Below are positions 3,719 through 13,647 of a DNA stretch of 64,000 bases, piece by piece; the first letter of the stretch is position 1, and each line of letters starts with the position of its first letter. The DNA lies in assembly GCF_013408745.1 (NCBI RefSeq), contig NZ_JACCBJ010000001.1, positions 1,736,001 through 1,800,000 of the forward strand. Direction: 5' to 3'. This DNA is from Leifsonia soli. Lineage in GTDB: Bacteria > Actinomycetota > Actinomycetes > Actinomycetales > Microbacteriaceae. The notes under the pieces are model-generated. The model ran no database searches, had not been told where the DNA came from, and saw only the letters and a list, made by a program, of their open reading frames with translations. A program made the position numbers and the translations under genes.

Positions 3719-3780
3719 ATCGGCTCCGGAGTTTCTCGCACCGACACGCCGTGTCGAGGCGGAGAAACTCCGGAGCCGAT
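3719..3780. repeat. 62-bp intergenic palindrome, type B
   Basis: Arms 3719-3737 and 3762-3780 are a perfect 19-bp inverted repeat (ATCGGCTCCGGAGTTTCTC and its complement). Inside them is a second small hairpin, CGACAC-GCC-GTGTCG. Read on the minus strand, the loop contains CGGCGTGTCGGTGC, the core shared with the other palindromes of this window. It lies between the ABC ATPase stop and the SDR start. Confidence 0.88.
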
Positions 3781-3789
3781 GGCGGGAGG

Positions 3790-4563
3790 CTAGAGCACCT
3801 TCGAGAGGAACGCCTGCGTCCGCTGGTGCTGCGGGTTGCTGAGCACTTCGCGCGGGTCGCCGGACTCGACGACCACGCCGCCGTCCATGAAGACCAGCTC
3901 GTCGGCGACCTCGCGGGCGAAGCCCATCTCGTGCGTCACGACCACCATGGTCATGCCGCTCGCGGCCAGGCCCTTCATCACATCCAGCACCTCGCCGACG
4001 AGCTCGGGGTCGAGTGCCGACGTCGGCTCGTCGAACAGCATCAGCTTGGGGTCCATCGCGAGCGCACGCGCGATCGCGACGCGCTGCTGCTGACCGCCGG
4101 ACAGCTGGGACGGGTAGTGGTCGCCCTTGTCGCTCAGCCCGACGCGGGCCAGCAGCTCGGTCGCCCGCTCCACCGCCTTCGCCTTCGAGAGCCCCTTCAC
4201 ACGGATGGGCGCCTCGATGATGTTCTCCAGCGCCGTCATGTGCGGGAACAGGTTGAACCGCTGGAACACCATCCCGATCTCGCGGCGCTGCCGGGCGGCC
4301 TCCTTGGGCTTCAGCTCGTACAGCTTGTCGCCGTGCTGCCGGTAGCCGACCACCTCGCCGTCGACCGAGAGCCGGCCGGCGTCGACGCGCTCCAGGTGGT
4401 TGATGCAGCGGAGGAAGGTGGACTTTCCGGAGCCCGACGGCCCGATGATGCACAGCACCTCGCCCGGGTTGACCTTGAGGTCGATGCTCTTGAGCACCTC
4501 GTTCGAGCCGAAGCTCTTCGAGACGCCCTCGGCCAGAACCATGGGGGTCTTCGTGTCGGTCAT
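3790..4563 (-). CDS. Polar amino-acid ABC transporter, ATP-binding protein
   Basis: 257 aa. Walker A is [11 protein letters not shown], the signature is [34 protein letters not shown], split as LSGGQQQR then [14 protein letters not shown], and the H-loop is [10 protein letters not shown]. The ...[19 protein letters not shown] region is typical of the GlnQ/HisP family. The start ATG at 4561-4563 overlaps the permease stop (ATGA), which implies translational coupling. It energises uptake through the adjacent permease and lipoprotein. Substrate specificity (glutamate, glutamine or another polar amino acid) cannot be read from the ATPase. Confidence 0.94.
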
Positions 4564-7572: not shown

Positions 7573-8562
7573 TCAGCGTCCGGTGGAGGCCTTGGCGTTC
7601 GACTCGTAGGACGTGTTGGTCGACTCGAAGAAGTTCACCAGCTCCAGCGTGTCGTTGGCGGTCGCCATCCACTTGGCCGGGTTGGAGACCTTGTACTCGG
7701 CCTCGAAGCCCAGCTCCTCCAGGCGGCGGTCGGCCAGGTACTTCACGTACTGGTTGATGTAGTTGGCATTCAGGCCCAGGATGCCGCCCGGAAGGAGGTC
7801 GCGGTTGTACTGCTCCTCCATCTCGACGGCGTCCAGGATCATCTGACGGATCTCGGCGGCGAACTCCGGCGTCTGCAGGTCCGGGTTCTCCTCCAGCACC
7901 GTCAGGATGAGGTTGATGCCGAACTTGAGGTGCAGCGACTCGTCGCGCACCACCCAGTCGATGAGCGAGCCGAAGTTGCGCAGCAGGTTCCGCTGGCGGA
8001 ACGAGAGCGCCACCATGAAGCCCGAGTAGAACCAGATCCCCTCGAGGATGACGTTGTACGCCACCAGGTTGCGGATGAAGTCCTGCTTGCCCTCGGTCGT
8101 CGTGATGTCGAGCGCCTGCTCGGTCATCCGCTTGATGAACCGGACCTCGAACTCCTCTTTCTTCGCCATCGACGGCACGTCGACGTGGGAGTTGTAGGCC
8201 TGCTCGCGGTCGATCGGGAACGTCTCGAGGACGTACTCGAACGACATGCAGTGGTTCGCCTCCTCCCACATCTGCTTGGCGAGGTAGAGGTGCGCCTCCG
8301 CGGCGTTGATGTAGGGGTAGACACCGAAGGCCAGGGCCTTGTTGACGAGCAGCTCGTTCGGGTTGAAGTAGCTCATCAGGAAGGTGACCGCGTGGCGCTC
8401 CTCGTCGGTCATCCGCTTGAAGTCGGCGATGTCCTCACCGAGCTGGATCTCGTTCGGGAACCAGGTGTTCGCGACGGCCTGGTCGTAGAGGTCCATCGCC
8501 CACTGGTACGTGACCGGCTTGAGCAGCAGGCCCTCTTCGATTCCCGTTCCCAGAATCCCCAT
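7573..8562 (-). CDS. nrdB: Ribonucleoside-diphosphate reductase small subunit, class Ic-like (radical Tyr replaced by Phe)
   Basis: 329 aa, the usual length of an R2 protein. All six dimetal ligands are identifiable: Glu70 (NPNELLVN), Glu101 and His104 (WEEANHC), a Glu in ILEGIWFY, and Glu and His in RDESLHL. The residue four after the first His, where E. coli R2 has radical Tyr122, is Phe108. The first ligand is Glu instead of Asp. Both features are described for class Ic (Chlamydia-type, Mn/Fe) R2 proteins. It supplies the oxidising equivalent to NrdA for dNTP synthesis. It lies 38 bp after the small cysteine-tail reading frame and 112 bp after the nrdA stop. Confidence 0.93.
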   Translation of the reverse strand: MGILGTGIEEGLLLKPVTYQWAMDLYDQAVANTWFPNEIQLGEDIADFKRMTDEERHAVTFLMSYFNPNELLVNKALAFGVYPYINAAEAHLYLAKQMWEEANHCMSFEYVLETFPIDREQAYNSHVDVPSMAKKEEFEVRFIKRMTEQALDITTTEGKQDFIRNLVAYNVILEGIWFYSGFMVALSFRQRNLLRNFGSLIDWVVRDESLHLKFGINLILTVLEENPDLQTPEFAAEIRQMILDAVEMEEQYNRDLLPGGILGLNANYINQYVKYLADRRLEELGFEAEYKVSNPAKWMATANDTLELVNFFESTNTSYESNAKASTGR

Positions 8563-8600: not shown

Positions 8601-8678
8601 TTACTGGCAGGACTCGCACTGCAGGTCGTCCATCGGGTCGACCGGCACGTAGTATTCCTCGATCTTGGTGCTGTTCAC
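8601..8678 (-). CDS. 25-codon frame encoding a CESC-ending tail, overlapping the nrdA stop (missing NrdA C-terminus or separate peptide)
   Basis: A GTG at 8676-8678 overlaps the nrdA TGA (GTGA). The frame runs 25 codons to a TAA at 8601 and ends VDPMDDLQCESCQ. A Cys pair at the extreme C-terminus after an acidic, Tyr-containing stretch is what class I R1 proteins carry as their redox-active swinging tail. The 826-aa NrdA frame ends without any Cys after its YYLH motif. One extra A in the AA of the overlap would fuse the two frames. This is therefore a coupled peptide, a frameshift product, or a one-base error in the assembly. Confidence 0.72.
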   Translation of the reverse strand: MNSTKIEEYYVPVDPMDDLQCESCQ

Positions 8679-11155
8679 TTGCTCTCACCACCCGTCGCGA
8701 GTCCGCCGAAGCCGAAGCCACGGCGAGCGGGCGCCGCGGCCGGAGCCGTCTCGGTCACCGCGGGAGCGGCCGAGGGAGCCGGAGCCCCGACGGTCGCGAA
8801 GCCCTTGCGGCCACCGCTGATCTCCTCGGCCTTGTTGACCTTGACGGTCGACTGCTCGGCCTGGTGGCGCGGCTTCATGTGGAGGTAGTACGTCGTCTTG
8901 ACGCCCTTCTCCCAGGCCGCGTAGTAGATGTCCATCATGTCGCCGAGGTCGCGCGTCTCGAGGTACATGTTGCGGCTGATCGCCTGGTCGATCCACTTCT
9001 GCGCGCGGGCCGCGACCTCGATGAAGGCGTACGGCGAGAGCTGGAAGCTCGTCTTGAACGTGGCCTTCACCTCGTCCGGGATCTCCGCGATGTTCTGGAT
9101 GTCGCCCTGCGACCGCAGGATCGCCTCGCGGACGTCCTGCCAGATGCCGCGCTCCTGCAGCGTCTCGACCAGGTTGCGGTTGACCTCGAGGAACTTGCCC
9201 GAGGAGGTCGAACGGCTGAAGATCTGCGAGAACTGCGGGTCGAAGCCGGGCGTGGTGCCCGCGACGAGACCGATGGACGCGGTCGGCGCGATGGCCATGA
9301 GGGTGGCGTTGCGCATGCCGCCCTTGACCTTCTCGCGGAGGCGGTCCCAGTCGAGGCGGATGGTGCGGTCCACCGTGATCGGGACGCCGCGGTCGGCCTC
9401 GGTGAGGGCGATGGAGTCGTAGGGCACCAGACCCTGCGACCAGCGGGAGCCCTCGAAGTTCGGGTACGCACCGCGCTCCTGCGCCAGGTCGGCGCTCTCG
9501 TCGATGGCGGCGTAGGAGACGTGCTCCATGATCTCGTCGATCAGGGCGTAGGCCTCTTCGCTCTCGTAGCTCAGGCCGAGCTTCTCGACGATGTCGGTGA
9601 AGCCCATGACGCCGAGGCCGATGGCGCGGTTCTGCTGGTTGGAGAAGTCGGCCTCCGGAACGCTCGACACGGTGATGTCGATGAGGTTGTCGAGCTGGCG
9701 GACCGCCTGGCGGGCGCTGGCCTCGATGCGCTCCCAGTCCATCTTCCCGTCGACCAGGTGACGCGACAGGTTGATCGACGCGAGGTTGCAGACCGAGACG
9801 TTGTCGCGGTCCTGCGGCAGCGTGATCTCGGTGCACAGGTTGGAGAGGTGGATGGTGCCCGTGTTGTTGTTGAGCGCACGGTTGTTGATCGTGTCCTTCC
9901 AGGTCAGCCACGGGTGGCTGGTGGTCTGGAGGCTCATCAGGATGTCCTTGAACTGCGCGCGGGCGCTGATCTTCTTGAACATCTTCAGGTTGCCGGCCTC
10001 GGCCTCTGCGACGTAGTGCGCGTAGCGCTCCGAGAAGGCCTTGCCGTACAGCTCGTTGAGGTCGGCGACCTCCAGCGGGTCGAAGAGGTACCAGTCCTCG
10101 TCGTTCTGGACGCGCTTCATGAACTCGTCGCTGATCCACACCGCGGTGTTCGCCGTGCGGGTGCGGCGGTACGGGTCGCCGGAGTTCTGGCGGAGGTCGA
10201 GGAACTCCGGGAAGTCCATGTGCCAGTTCTCCATGTAGAAGCAGAGGGCGCCGAACTTCTTGCCGCCGCGGCTGACCGCCCGCAGCACCGAGTCGATCGT
10301 GTGCATGAACGGGATGGGGCCGGTGGAGGTGGTGTTGTTGGAGCGGATGGGCGAGCCCTGCGCACGCAGCTTGGTGACCGACAGGCCGATGCCGCCGGTG
10401 CCCTTGGTGAGCCACATGACGTCGCGGACGCTCTTCGCGATGTGCTCGATGTCGTCCTGCATCTCCATGACGAAGCAGTTGGAGAGCTGCGGATAGGCGG
10501 TGCCCGCGTTGACGAGGGTCGAGCCGGCGGCCAGATACTCGAGCTTCGACATCTTGTCGTAGAACGCGATCGCGTGGCTGGTGGGGTCGGCCTCGTTGAG
10601 GGAGAGGCCCATGGCGATGCGCATCCAGAAGAACTGCGGCACCTCGAGGGAGTCGCCGTTGCGGGCCTTGATGCCGTAGCGGTTGTTGAGGGTGACGACG
10701 CCGATGTACTTCAGCAGCTCGTCGCGCGCGGGGTCGAGGTAGCCGGCCAGGCGGTCGAGGTCGAAGGCGGTGGTGAAGCGGCCGTCGAGCAGCGTCTCGG
10801 CGACGCCGCGCTCGATGTAGCCGCGGAAGCGGGAGGTGTGCAGCTCGACCAGCTCGTCGTGGCTCTCGTAGTCGCCGAGCACGCGCTTGTAGATGGTCTT
10901 GAGGAGGAGGCGCGCGGCGACGGTGTCGAACGCCGGGTCGTCCTTGACGTTCTGGAGGGCGACCTGGATGACCGCCTCGTCCAGCTGCTGGGTCGTGATG
11001 CCGTCGAACAGCGTGAGCTCGAGCTCGCTCGCGATCTGCGTCACCCACGTGATGTTCTCGTCGAGTCCCTTGGCCGCGTTCTCGATGGCCAGGTTGATCT
11101 TGTTGGCGTCGTACGGCTCGCGCTCGCCGTTGCGCTTCACGACTGTGATTGCCAC
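8675..11155 (-). CDS. nrdA: Ribonucleoside-diphosphate reductase large subunit (R1), lacking in-frame C-terminal cysteines
   Basis: 826 aa. An ATP-cone is at residues 1-95 (starting VVKRNGEREPYD), which gives dATP/ATP overall control. The catalytic barrel shows LSNCFVM (first redox Cys), SNLCTEI (thiyl Cys with Asn and Glu), VCNLASINL (second redox Cys) and the radical-transfer pair in KTTYYLHM. The tail from about 760 is Ala/Pro-rich, ends GGESK and has no Cys. The expected CxxC tail is in the overlapping downstream frame. It reduces NDPs to dNDPs in the cytoplasm together with NrdB. The upstream region holds NrdR-like and DnaA-like sites. Confidence 0.95.
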   Translation of the reverse strand: MAITVVKRNGEREPYDANKINLAIENAAKGLDENITWVTQIASELELTLFDGITTQQLDEAVIQVALQNVKDDPAFDTVAARLLLKTIYKRVLGDYESHDELVELHTSRFRGYIERGVAETLLDGRFTTAFDLDRLAGYLDPARDELLKYIGVVTLNNRYGIKARNGDSLEVPQFFWMRIAMGLSLNEADPTSHAIAFYDKMSKLEYLAAGSTLVNAGTAYPQLSNCFVMEMQDDIEHIAKSVRDVMWLTKGTGGIGLSVTKLRAQGSPIRSNNTTSTGPIPFMHTIDSVLRAVSRGGKKFGALCFYMENWHMDFPEFLDLRQNSGDPYRRTRTANTAVWISDEFMKRVQNDEDWYLFDPLEVADLNELYGKAFSERYAHYVAEAEAGNLKMFKKISARAQFKDILMSLQTTSHPWLTWKDTINNRALNNNTGTIHLSNLCTEITLPQDRDNVSVCNLASINLSRHLVDGKMDWERIEASARQAVRQLDNLIDITVSSVPEADFSNQQNRAIGLGVMGFTDIVEKLGLSYESEEAYALIDEIMEHVSYAAIDESADLAQERGAYPNFEGSRWSQGLVPYDSIALTEADRGVPITVDRTIRLDWDRLREKVKGGMRNATLMAIAPTASIGLVAGTTPGFDPQFSQIFSRSTSSGKFLEVNRNLVETLQERGIWQDVREAILRSQGDIQNIAEIPDEVKATFKTSFQLSPYAFIEVAARAQKWIDQAISRNMYLETRDLGDMMDIYYAAWEKGVKTTYYLHMKPRHQAEQSTVKVNKAEEISGGRKGFATVGAPAPSAAPAVTETAPAAAPARRGFGFGGLATGGESK

Positions 11156-11254
11156 TGTCTCTCCCTCATTCGCTAAGCCGCCTGAGCGGCGGAAATCCCC
11201 GCGGAACCGTGCCTTCCCGCATCGGGGGGAGGCTGACCGGCTCTGTGTGCTCGA

Positions 11255-11303
11255 CCACTATATAGCGGGGGTCCGACATTTCCACTCCCCCACATCTAGT
11301 GGG
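11255..11303. promoter_or_regulatory. nrdA: Possible NrdR boxes upstream of nrdA
   Basis: Two imperfect AT-centred palindromes lie 100-150 bp upstream of nrdA: CCACTATATAGCGG (11255-11268) and CCCACATCTAGTGGG (11289-11303). Both resemble the NrdR consensus of the ACACTATATAGTGT type. Their centre-to-centre distance is about 34 bp, slightly more than the 31-32 bp usual for NrdR pairs, so the second box is the weaker call. Confidence 0.4.
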
Positions 11304-11307
11304 CGTG

Positions 11308-11416
11308 TCGTCCACAGATGGGGAGAAGTTATGCACAGTTTCCACACCCCGCAAAGTGGGGATGGGCCGTGTGGATGATCCCGCGGAACGGCCCCCGCGA
11401 CCGATAGTGTGGATAG
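11308..11416. promoter_or_regulatory. Cluster of five DnaA-box-like 9-mers between nrdA and an MFS gene
   Basis: Compared with TTATCCACA / TTGTCCACA: TCGTCCACA (11308-11316), TTATGCACA (11329-11337), GTTTCCACA (11338-11346), and on the minus strand TCATCCACA (11370-11378) and CTATCCACA (11408-11416). Each differs from one of these consensus forms by one or two bases. Five in 109 bp is far above chance in such GC-rich DNA. In E. coli, DnaA boxes upstream of nrdAB tie dNTP supply to replication initiation; the same role here is inference. Confidence 0.6.
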
Positions 11417-11418
11417 TC

Positions 11419-12630
11419 GTGAGCACCTACTCGAGCCTCCTGAAGACGCCGGGCGTCGCCCGCATCATCGCGGCTCAGCTCACCGCCCGCTTCCCGTTCG
11501 GGATGCTGTCGCTGGCCTTCCTGCTGCACATCGAGCGCGTCCACGACTCGTACGCCGCCGCCGGACTGGTGCTCGGCGCCATGAGCATCGGGCAGGCCAT
11601 AGCCGGCCCGATGACCAGCAGGCTGATGGGCGTCCTCGGCATGCGCGTCGTGCTCTGGACCACCCTCGCCCTGTGCTCCGTGGCGGTCGCGGCGATCGGC
11701 ATCTTCGTCATGCCCATCCCCCTGACCATGGGCGTCGCGTTCTTCGCCGGGCTGAGCATGCCGCCCATCCAGCCGGCCGTGCGCACCATCTACCCGAAGA
11801 TGGTCAACTCGCGGCAGCTGACGCCGCTGTTCTCGCTCGACGCCTCGGCGCAGGAGATCATCTGGATCGCCGGACCGGTCGCCATCACGTTCGTCTCGAC
11901 GCAGATCGGCACCGTCGAGGGCATCCTGATGTCGGTGGCGATCATGCTCGCCGGCGGCTGCTGGTTCATCTCGTCGCCCGAGGTCGGCCGGGTGCGCATC
12001 CCCCGCAGCAAGCGGCGGTTCGGGACGGTGCTGGCGCGGCCGCCCGTCCTGCTCGCGACGGTCGTCGGCTTCCTGCTGATCGGATCCTGCTCGGCGGTCG
12101 AGGCCGGTGTCGTCGCCACGTTCGGCGAGGGCTCTCCGCTCGCCGGGATCGTGCTCGCCATCTGGTCGCTCGGTTCGCTGGTCGGCGGCCTCGCCTTCGG
12201 CCACGTGCCGATCGGGCCGTGGGCGACAGCGCGGCGCATGCTCATCGTGTTCGTCGGCGTCGTGCTGTCGACCTTCATGCTGTGGTCGTGGTGGGGGCTG
12301 TCGCTCACGCTGCTCGTCGCCGGACTCGGCATCGCGCCCGCCCTCGCCGTGCTGTTCGCCATCGTGTCCGCGAGCGTGAAGTTCTCCGACACGGCGGAGG
12401 CGTACGGCTGGGTCGGAACCGGGCAGCTGATCGGTGCCGCGCTCGGCTCGGCGCTCGCCGGCTTCCTCATCGACGGCGTCGGTGCAGTGGGAGCCTTCTG
12501 GGTCGCCGGGGCGTTCGCCCTGGTCGGCTTCGTCGTGCCCGCACTGGCGCACCGCATCCACCCCGACCTGCGGGGTCGCGACGCCTCCCCCATCCCCGAC
12601 ACCGAGCCCGTCCCCGTCCAGCCCTCCTAA
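11419..12630 (+). CDS. Major facilitator superfamily transporter
   Basis: 403 aa with about 12 predicted membrane helices, beginning near VARIIAAQLTARFPFGML. I place the start at GTG 11419, where similarity to the MFS N-terminus begins. No clear Shine-Dalgarno sequence precedes it, so the message may be leaderless. Longer in-frame starts back to 11299 would run through the DnaA-box cluster. The family exports or imports small molecules by proton coupling; no substrate is evident. It is divergent from nrdA, and a 56-bp palindrome follows the stop. Confidence 0.87.
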   Translation: MSTYSSLLKTPGVARIIAAQLTARFPFGMLSLAFLLHIERVHDSYAAAGLVLGAMSIGQAIAGPMTSRLMGVLGMRVVLWTTLALCSVAVAAIGIFVMPIPLTMGVAFFAGLSMPPIQPAVRTIYPKMVNSRQLTPLFSLDASAQEIIWIAGPVAITFVSTQIGTVEGILMSVAIMLAGGCWFISSPEVGRVRIPRSKRRFGTVLARPPVLLATVVGFLLIGSCSAVEAGVVATFGEGSPLAGIVLAIWSLGSLVGGLAFGHVPIGPWATARRMLIVFVGVVLSTFMLWSWWGLSLTLLVAGLGIAPALAVLFAIVSASVKFSDTAEAYGWVGTGQLIGAALGSALAGFLIDGVGAVGAFWVAGAFALVGFVVPALAHRIHPDLRGRDASPIPDTEPVPVQPS

Positions 12631-12648
12631 CGTCCCCAACCACCGCGC

Positions 12649-12704
12649 GAGGTGCTCGTCGTTGCGGTCGACACGCCGGGCTTGCGCGCATCTTCGAGCA
12701 CTTC
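12649..12704. repeat. 56-bp intergenic palindrome, type C copy 1 (inverted orientation)
   Basis: Outer arms GAGGTGCTCG (12649-12658) and CGAGCACTTC (12695-12704) pair with one mismatch. On the minus strand CCCGGCGTGTCG starts at offset 24, exactly as in the second copy at 13646-13701. The two copies flank the AbiEi/DUF559-type gene in opposite orientation. Confidence 0.85.
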
Positions 12705-12762
12705 ATGTGAGGGCTGTGGATAGTTCGGGGCAGGAGGGGCGCACGAGTGCGAGGGTGTGCGG

Positions 12763-13647
12763 ATGGATCCGCACCCCTTCACCCAACCGTTCTCAACCGC
12801 TGAGGCGCTACGCGACGGAGTCTCGCGCGGACGGCTCCGCTCACGCTCGCTCGTCGCACCGTTCCGCGGGATGCGCATCGCGCGTGACTCCGATTGCGAC
12901 GACGCCCGCCTCCGGGCTTTCGCCGCTCACCGGCTGACCGACTACGCCTTCAGTCACACGACCGCCGCCGCGCTCTACGGGATACCCCTGCCCGCCTGGT
13001 GCTCGGCCGAGATCCATGTCAGCGTGCCGGGAACGTGCCGTGCGCCCGTGGTGCGCGGCCACGTCGGCCACAAGCTGAGCCGGTGGGAGATCACGGAGGT
13101 GCGCGGACTGCCGGTCACCCGCCCGGAGCAGACCTGGCTCGACCTCGCGACCCTCCTCGACGTGCAGGAGCTGGTCGTCGCCGGCGACTCCCTCGTCGGA
13201 GGCCGGCCGCCACTCACCTCACTCGAGCTCCTGTCAGCAGCAGTGGCCGCATCGGCGGGGCGGCGTGGCGCGGGCCGGGCGCGCCATGCGCTCGAACGCG
13301 TACGTCGAGGAGCCGAGTCGCCGGGCGAGACGCGATTGCGCCTCGCGCTCAGCGACGCAGGTCTCCCGGAGCCGATCCTCAACCACCCGATCTTCGATCC
13401 GTCCGGCCGGTTCGTCGCCCGGGTCGACCTCGCCTACATCGGTCCGCGCGTCGCACTCGAGTACGAGGGAGACATCCATCGCGTCGACCGCGCGACCTGG
13501 CGCAAGGACATCACGCGACGCGAGCTGGTCGAAGACCTCGGCTGGCGGATGGTACGAATCACCGCCGACGATCTGCGCGACCAGGCGGCCCTCGTCGCGC
13601 GCATCACCCACCTCCTCCTCGCGCGCGCCCCGCGATCGGGCGCGTGA
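12763..13647 (+). CDS. AbiEi-type winged-helix / DUF559 nuclease-fold protein
   Basis: 294 aa from ATG 12763 (GAGGG seven bases upstream); a GTG at 12757 is an alternative. The N-terminal part (about 1-90) has the layout of AbiEi-like antitoxin domains, including the phrase YAFSHTTAAALYGIPLP. The C-terminal part (about 185-290) is a Vsr/DUF559-like fold: RVDLAYIGPRVALEYEGD with acidic residues, then RRELVEDLGWRMVRI. Such proteins are widespread and often multicopy in actinobacteria. No toxin partner is adjacent, so a toxin-antitoxin role is unsupported. A nuclease role is a family inference from the acidic residues. Confidence 0.8.
   Translation: MDPHPFTQPFSTAEALRDGVSRGRLRSRSLVAPFRGMRIARDSDCDDARLRAFAAHRLTDYAFSHTTAAALYGIPLPAWCSAEIHVSVPGTCRAPVVRGHVGHKLSRWEITEVRGLPVTRPEQTWLDLATLLDVQELVVAGDSLVGGRPPLTSLELLSAAVAASAGRRGAGRARHALERVRRGAESPGETRLRLALSDAGLPEPILNHPIFDPSGRFVARVDLAYIGPRVALEYEGDIHRVDRATWRKDITRRELVEDLGWRMVRITADDLRDQAALVARITHLLLARAPRSGA

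Follow-up and report, generated by a model that had tools for sequence, protein, structure and literature searches.

The redox-active tail of a class I ribonucleotide reductase (RNR) has very probably been detached from its catalytic subunit in the 64,000-nucleotide stretch of Leifsonia soli DNA analyzed here (the window), and would act in trans, as a dissociable subunit, in the form of an independent peptide of about 25 residues. RNR is essential, and a covalent redox tail counts as a regular component of the class I enzymes. At the level of sequence, the tail is split from NrdA, conserved, and separately coded; it co-occurs with the tail-less enzyme, shares NrdR-like sites with it, and is carried by phages.

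The nrdA 3' end and the enzyme it encodes

The features of the window that bear on this reading are the following.

11287..11302, minus strand: NrdR-like box 1 upstream of nrdA, CCACTAGATGTGGGGG; tandem score 21/32 at 32 nt spacing
11255..11270, minus strand: NrdR-like box 2 upstream of nrdA, CCCCGCTATATAGTGG
8675..11155, minus strand: nrdA, tail-less class I RNR catalytic subunit, 826 amino acids; ATP-cone, all-alpha, and barrel domains by Pfam and NCBIfam
8711..8725, minus strand: RRGFG motif near the NrdA end; kept in the tail-less enzymes examined
8682..8698, minus strand: Shine-Dalgarno-like stretch for the peptide, within the end of nrdA; predicted duplex energy -10.2 kcal/mol
8675..8678, minus strand: GTGA overlap of peptide start and nrdA stop; probable translational coupling
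8601..8678, minus strand: putative redox-tail peptide ORF, 25 codons, GTG start, TAA stop, MNSTKIEEYYVPVDPMDDLQCESCQ
7573..8562, minus strand: nrdB, radical-generating subunit, 329 amino acids; Phe at the Tyr-radical column, class Ic-like

Read along the minus strand, nrdA (11155-8675) is followed by the 25-codon ORF (8678-8601) and then by nrdB (8562-7573). In the ORF list of the window, nrdA coding spans 11155-8678 and its TGA stop lies at 8677-8675; the translation ends in ...FGGLATGGESK, with no cysteine beyond TTYYLH. The small ORF opens at a GTG (8678-8676) and closes at a TAA (8603-8601), and its product ends in ...VPVDPMDDLQCESCQ, the last residues being LQCESCQ. An earlier note on this DNA had described an 826-residue NrdA that ends in GGESK with no Cys past YYLH, as the window sequence and ORF list confirm, and a GTG overlapping the nrdA stop (GTGA) that opens a 25-codon frame, which the sequence likewise contains. 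The likeness the note saw between the end of this frame and the CxxC tail of class I R1 proteins holds as well, the ORF end being homologous to the C-terminus of fused relatives. The in-frame TGA that it placed upstream is present (8687-8685), at nine bases from the GTG rather than eight, and the short A-run that it invoked is absent from the junction, which reads GAGAGCAAGTGAACAG.

In its ATP-cone, all-alpha, and barrel domains, and in its active-site cysteines and YY dyad, NrdA conforms to a class I RNR catalytic subunit. Residues C227, C441, C456, Y756, and Y757 (L037 numbering), which we take to be these cysteines and the dyad, are invariant in 25 aligned sequences; NrdA was also aligned with 5im3. 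A class II, AdoCbl-dependent enzyme is not indicated, since class I profiles score best and an R2 gene follows. NrdA carries no CxxC pair at the C-terminus of its own chain. NrdB aligns best with the R2 chain 1syy, presumably the R2 of Chlamydia trachomatis, and a Phe replaces the radical Tyr in what we take to be the radical-site column; on this sequence basis the enzyme looks class Ic.

In the ESSENTIALITY context, the genome is one contig, 100% complete, with one PF02867 protein and one PF00268 protein. No match to NrdD (PF13597) was found in the complete genome, nor any RNR besides NrdA/NrdB. The tail-less enzyme must therefore supply the dNTPs, unless an undetected RNR exists.

The RRGFG motif belongs to a linker end that is widely kept: [RK][RK]GF[GA] occurs 7-23 residues from the end in 106/106 tail-less NrdAs (the window, L002-L027, and L031-L110 less L104, duplicates included and L028-L030 left out), and in 18 of the 23 fused NrdAs. 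None of the 106 has a Cys after TTYYLH. We can only guess at a docking role for this conserved segment. An AlphaFold model, built on an alignment of only 25 sequences, has a mean pLDDT of 60 with residues 756-849 below 50 and gives no docking.

Split and fused relatives, and coding of the peptide

When the window and 146 related loci were sorted (147 sequences), 108 were split and 23 fused, leaving 16 without a match to the core. Counting only different 330-nt junctions, the 131 classified sequences comprise 93 distinct split and 22 distinct fused versions (the window and L001, L029 and L116, L030 and L115, L028 and L117, and L112 and L134 are examples of duplicates). The split R1 that the earlier note listed as one of its options is the right one. 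The fused NrdAs come from other families of the class, are 70-77% identical over NrdA, and have an nrdA frame that continues into ...ACPVDPQERLQCESCQ or a very similar sequence; the small ORF is therefore the former NrdA tail. Clavibacter and Pontimonas records also have a tail-less NrdA with the peptide, and in L028 and L030, the exceptions, the nrdA frame continues past the peptide.

The 16 sequences without a core match are of several kinds. Four (L048, L078, L094, and L105) have NrdA without an adjacent peptide, four (L096, L104, L121, and L132) are cut by contig ends, and seven (L113, L114, and L142-L146) encode more distant NrdAs whose in-frame tail is of another kind. The last, L141 (noted at 3774-3927), encodes an NrdA from another family (64% identical) that has no fused tail, and no peptide was found in the part of the locus examined; the peptide pattern is also absent from its genome, G314, and independent loss or a damaged 3' end is possible.

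The position of the peptide start relative to the first base of the nrdA stop was compared in 101 loci (the tail-less set less loci without a usable peptide, starts being chosen by rule). It is an ATG at +2 in 49, a GTG at -1, as in the window, in 21, and an ATG at -1 in 13, with the remaining 18 elsewhere, from +2 to +19. In six loci (five distinct) the peptide lies in the nrdA frame behind the stop, and in L045, L069, and L089 it occupies the third frame. Anti-Shine-Dalgarno duplex energies upstream of the peptide have a median of -9.9 kcal/mol in the 101 loci, 89% being at or below -5, compared with a median of -2.7 kcal/mol and 27% at random nrdA coding positions. Over the last 18 codons, pooled pN/pS (101 loci, 69 distinct DNA versions) is 0.31 in the frame of the peptide versus 1.8 and 2.7 in the shifted frames, indicating purifying selection. 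Two versions of the peptide gave no match to Pfam and NCBIfam at E 10, a search in which HMMER filters drop most weak matches.

Genomes were scanned with a degenerate DNA pattern for DPM[DE]xLxC[DE]SCQ-stop, which requires DPM and is blind to fused DPQ tails; the reversed pattern gave no match in all eight genomes scanned with it. Among 398 genomes of the family, 170 have NrdA (E <= 1e-150) together with the peptide, none has NrdA only, 7 have the peptide only, and 221 have neither. The seven, out of 228 genomes without a detected NrdA, are all <95% complete. Among 394 genomes of the class, 118 have an NrdA relative at E <= 1e-100 and a single one, the window's own genome, has the pattern. Because of this restricted distribution and the purifying selection in the peptide frame, a chance ORF is excluded.

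Standalone and viral copies

The four genomes whose nrdA has no adjacent peptide (L048, L078, L094, and L105) each have exactly one copy of the pattern, away from nrdA. The window's genome has a second copy (C1:3765539-3765577), a small gene, MDYENDSVGGYSVPVDPMDLLQCDSCQ, with an SD-like energy of -11.0, and standalone genes have their own ATG and SD. Two copies are found in 123 of the 170 genomes, one in 21, three in 21, four in 3, and five in 2; in the 23 two-copy genomes compared by eye, among the matches listed, one copy always lies directly behind nrdA and the other elsewhere.

Many standalone copies are preceded by tandem NrdR-like boxes. Two sites were scored against ACACWATATATWGTGT, taken as the NrdR box consensus, with a spacing of 31-33 nt imposed and a cut-off of >=20/32. 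Of 26 standalone copies, 20 score >=21/32, the six without boxes being L156, L157, L161, L162, L296, and L310, and all 66 nrdA upstream regions with enough flank (of 80 loci) score >=20/32. None of 21 nrdA-adjacent peptide starts reaches the cut-off, and among 115 viral copies only that of L224 does, upstream of its own nrdA. Random windows reach it in 92 of 3200 draws, taken from nrdA loci and possibly including real boxes. When the spacing rule is lifted, box pairs 32-33 nt apart are found in some loci. Judged by sequence only, nrdA and the standalone copy thus have the two boxes about three helix turns apart that mark an NrdR regulon, and the window's genome has an NrdR gene; NrdR probably controls both genes. 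This spacing agrees with what is given in the consulted parts of PMC9110341 and PMC12051234, the latter describing NrdR proteins that bind boxes with 14-17 bp spacers.

The surroundings of the standalone copies were also surveyed. A motif of what we take to be MaoC-like hydratases occurs within ~260 codons downstream in 12 of 15 boxed loci checked, further off in L286 and L290, and not in the stretch examined of L285; it is found beside none of the six copies without boxes. No tRNA was found in ten standalone loci scanned, and PHROGs did not identify most of the genes that flank one genome's extra copies. In L162 (1501-2091, minus strand) a 196-codon ORF ends in the tail motif VPTDPMDELGCDSCQ, which here seems to be fused to another protein. 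Two public proteins, P0135 and P0139 (33 and 25 amino acids), are named "ribonucleotide-diphosphate reductase subunit beta," a misleading name for the peptide.

The peptide is also present in at least 120 viral contigs. Of the 120 listed, 119 have a start codon in frame ahead of the core, L237 being cut by the contig end. In L174, L187, and L228, most of the scanned neighbors have matches to phage families, with tail, tape-measure, terminase, portal, and polymerase-exonuclease families represented. Searches with NrdA and NrdB (tblastn) find neither gene in 117 of the 120 stretches, which are partial contigs that may have RNR genes elsewhere. L224 has both: a tail-less R1 of 1120 amino acids (9955-13317) whose intein-like insert falls narrowly short of the Pfam cut-off, then nrdB, with the peptide gene directly upstream of nrdA behind the tandem NrdR-like site. 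L241 (3885-4972) and L274 (13175-14152) have an nrdB 82-83% identical to that of the window and no nrdA in the stretch searched; in L241 the peptide is directly upstream of nrdB. R1-like motifs in L216 and L231 were dropped as short spurious matches.

In a collection of annotated phages, three distinct phages matched, Clavibacter phages CMP1 and CN1A and Pontimonas phage phiPsal1, and a hit in a Staphylococcus phage (H6, E 10, inside an antirepressor) was discounted as a chance match. In these three records no annotated feature underlies the match, and the start of the peptide either overlaps the end of a gene labeled hol, holin, or metallophosphatase or lies right next to it. The three annotations list no RNR, and tblastn with NrdA and NrdB finds none, but CMP1 has an annotated thymidylate synthase and CN1A an annotated thymidylate kinase. 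A separate observation is that phrog_30277, of unknown function, adjoins the peptide in both a viral contig (L174:904-1215, minus strand) and a bacterial genome (L161:1582-1980, minus strand), which suggests a prophage cassette.

Competing explanations and known systems

We predict that translation of the peptide begins at the nrdA stop, through re-initiation or coupled initiation, and that, in the window's genome and many relatives, it would also be made from the second, standalone gene, usually behind tandem NrdR-like boxes. The CxxC pair of the peptide would reach into the active site of NrdA and reduce the disulfide that every catalytic cycle leaves behind; thioredoxin or a comparable donor would then reduce the pair again, just as covalent tails work elsewhere. 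A redox tail is expected to be needed because the active-site disulfide residues and the YY dyad are present. From the sequences we infer that the peptide is translated, binds NrdA, and takes part in electron transfer in a redox role; the most economical reading, by analogy, is that it would supply the tail in trans, in the way that NrdJb serves NrdJa. That the second gene controls the dose is a guess. The broader proposal, that the tail is a diffusible subunit whose dose a second, NrdR-controlled gene can adjust independently of NrdA, and that phages carry only the peptide to drive or retune the host enzyme, strikes us as evenly balanced between right and wrong.

Several observations count against a detached tail: the linker end kept in 106/106, which is unexplained if the tail is simply gone, L141, the frames of L028 and L030 that read past the peptide, the seven peptide-only genomes, the 6/26 copies without boxes, and the model without docking. 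The kept linker, together with the same relative frame and tight overlap in most loci, would suit a programmed frameshift or stop readthrough that joins the tail to NrdA, the working enzyme being one chain. Such a mechanism implies a fixed frame relation and a slip site shared by relatives. However, tail frames of 0, 1, or 2, start offsets from -1 to +19, distant-only copies in four genomes, the viral copy upstream of nrdA in L224, the SD-like sites, and standalone genes with their own ATG and SD make it very unlikely, and the frameshift entertained in the earlier note can be rejected as a general mechanism. A one-base sequencing or assembly error, with NrdA really fused, was another of its options. 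The region is GC-rich and the tail matches the expected continuation, but the same split recurs across many separate assemblies (the 108 sequences above), and in the relatives, where the note proposed to look for an in-frame fusion, 0/111 sequences (a few cut by contig ends) have a CxxC in the NrdA frame; we give an error practically no credence.

The peptide could instead be a separate RNR-associated regulator (an inhibitor, assembly factor, or metal carrier), another thiol system reducing NrdA directly. The presence in many genomes of two copies whose surroundings differ would fit this too, as would the phage copies unaccompanied by RNR, but the peptide matches the fused tail in sequence, CxxC included, and co-occurs with tail-less NrdA in 170/170 genomes; moreover, the in vivo activity of NrdJa depends on NrdJb, as stated in the consulted part of PMC4520616. 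We therefore consider a regulator improbable. A tail encoded on a separate chain, as in a split RNR with its redox cysteines in trans, is the reading we prefer.

If the tail is detached, a synthetic peptide could test how a tail finds the active site and how its reduction limits turnover, and it becomes testable whether dNTP supply is tuned by tail dose. A micro-gene found in many bacteria and phages, now without annotation in three phage records and called "subunit beta" in two public entries, would gain a name, and if phages do use the peptide on the host enzyme, it would be a viral metabolic gene of ~25 codons.

No report of a separately encoded class I tail was found in the open-access literature searched, judged by title or abstract opening, and the available text of PMC9531940 gives a C-terminal CXXC in 1737 of 2022 class I sequences. 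The outgroup relatives, like the NF005101 profile, represent the same enzyme family with a homologous tail in cis; there the tail is in the same chain, whereas in the window it is a separate peptide. The closest parallel is NrdJa/NrdJb of Pseudomonas aeruginosa, a split class II RNR in which the second chain does thiol-disulfide exchange (PMC4520616, in the part available). As here, the redox cysteines are encoded on a second chain in the same operon, and NrdJb is needed for the exchange; unlike that system, which is class II with a second chain of 229 residues, the present one is class I, has ~25 residues, and occurs in standalone and phage copies. The same text describes split NrdJ as the sole split RNR found outside viruses, and a class I case in cells would therefore be new relative to that paper. 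The NrdA of Aeromonas phage Aeh1 is likewise a class I NrdA in two chains, reported as fully functional, that was cut by a homing endonuclease gene (mobE insertion) in a functionally critical region (PMC2988022, as far as its accessible text goes). Unlike in Aeh1, only the tail is detached here, and no insertion is seen at the junction in the window. Unusual genetic packaging of the RNR reductant is also seen in the Facklamia NrdB with a fused glutaredoxin, in the portion of PMC6187632 consulted; there it is a fusion of a glutaredoxin domain, whereas here it would be the detachment of a tail peptide.
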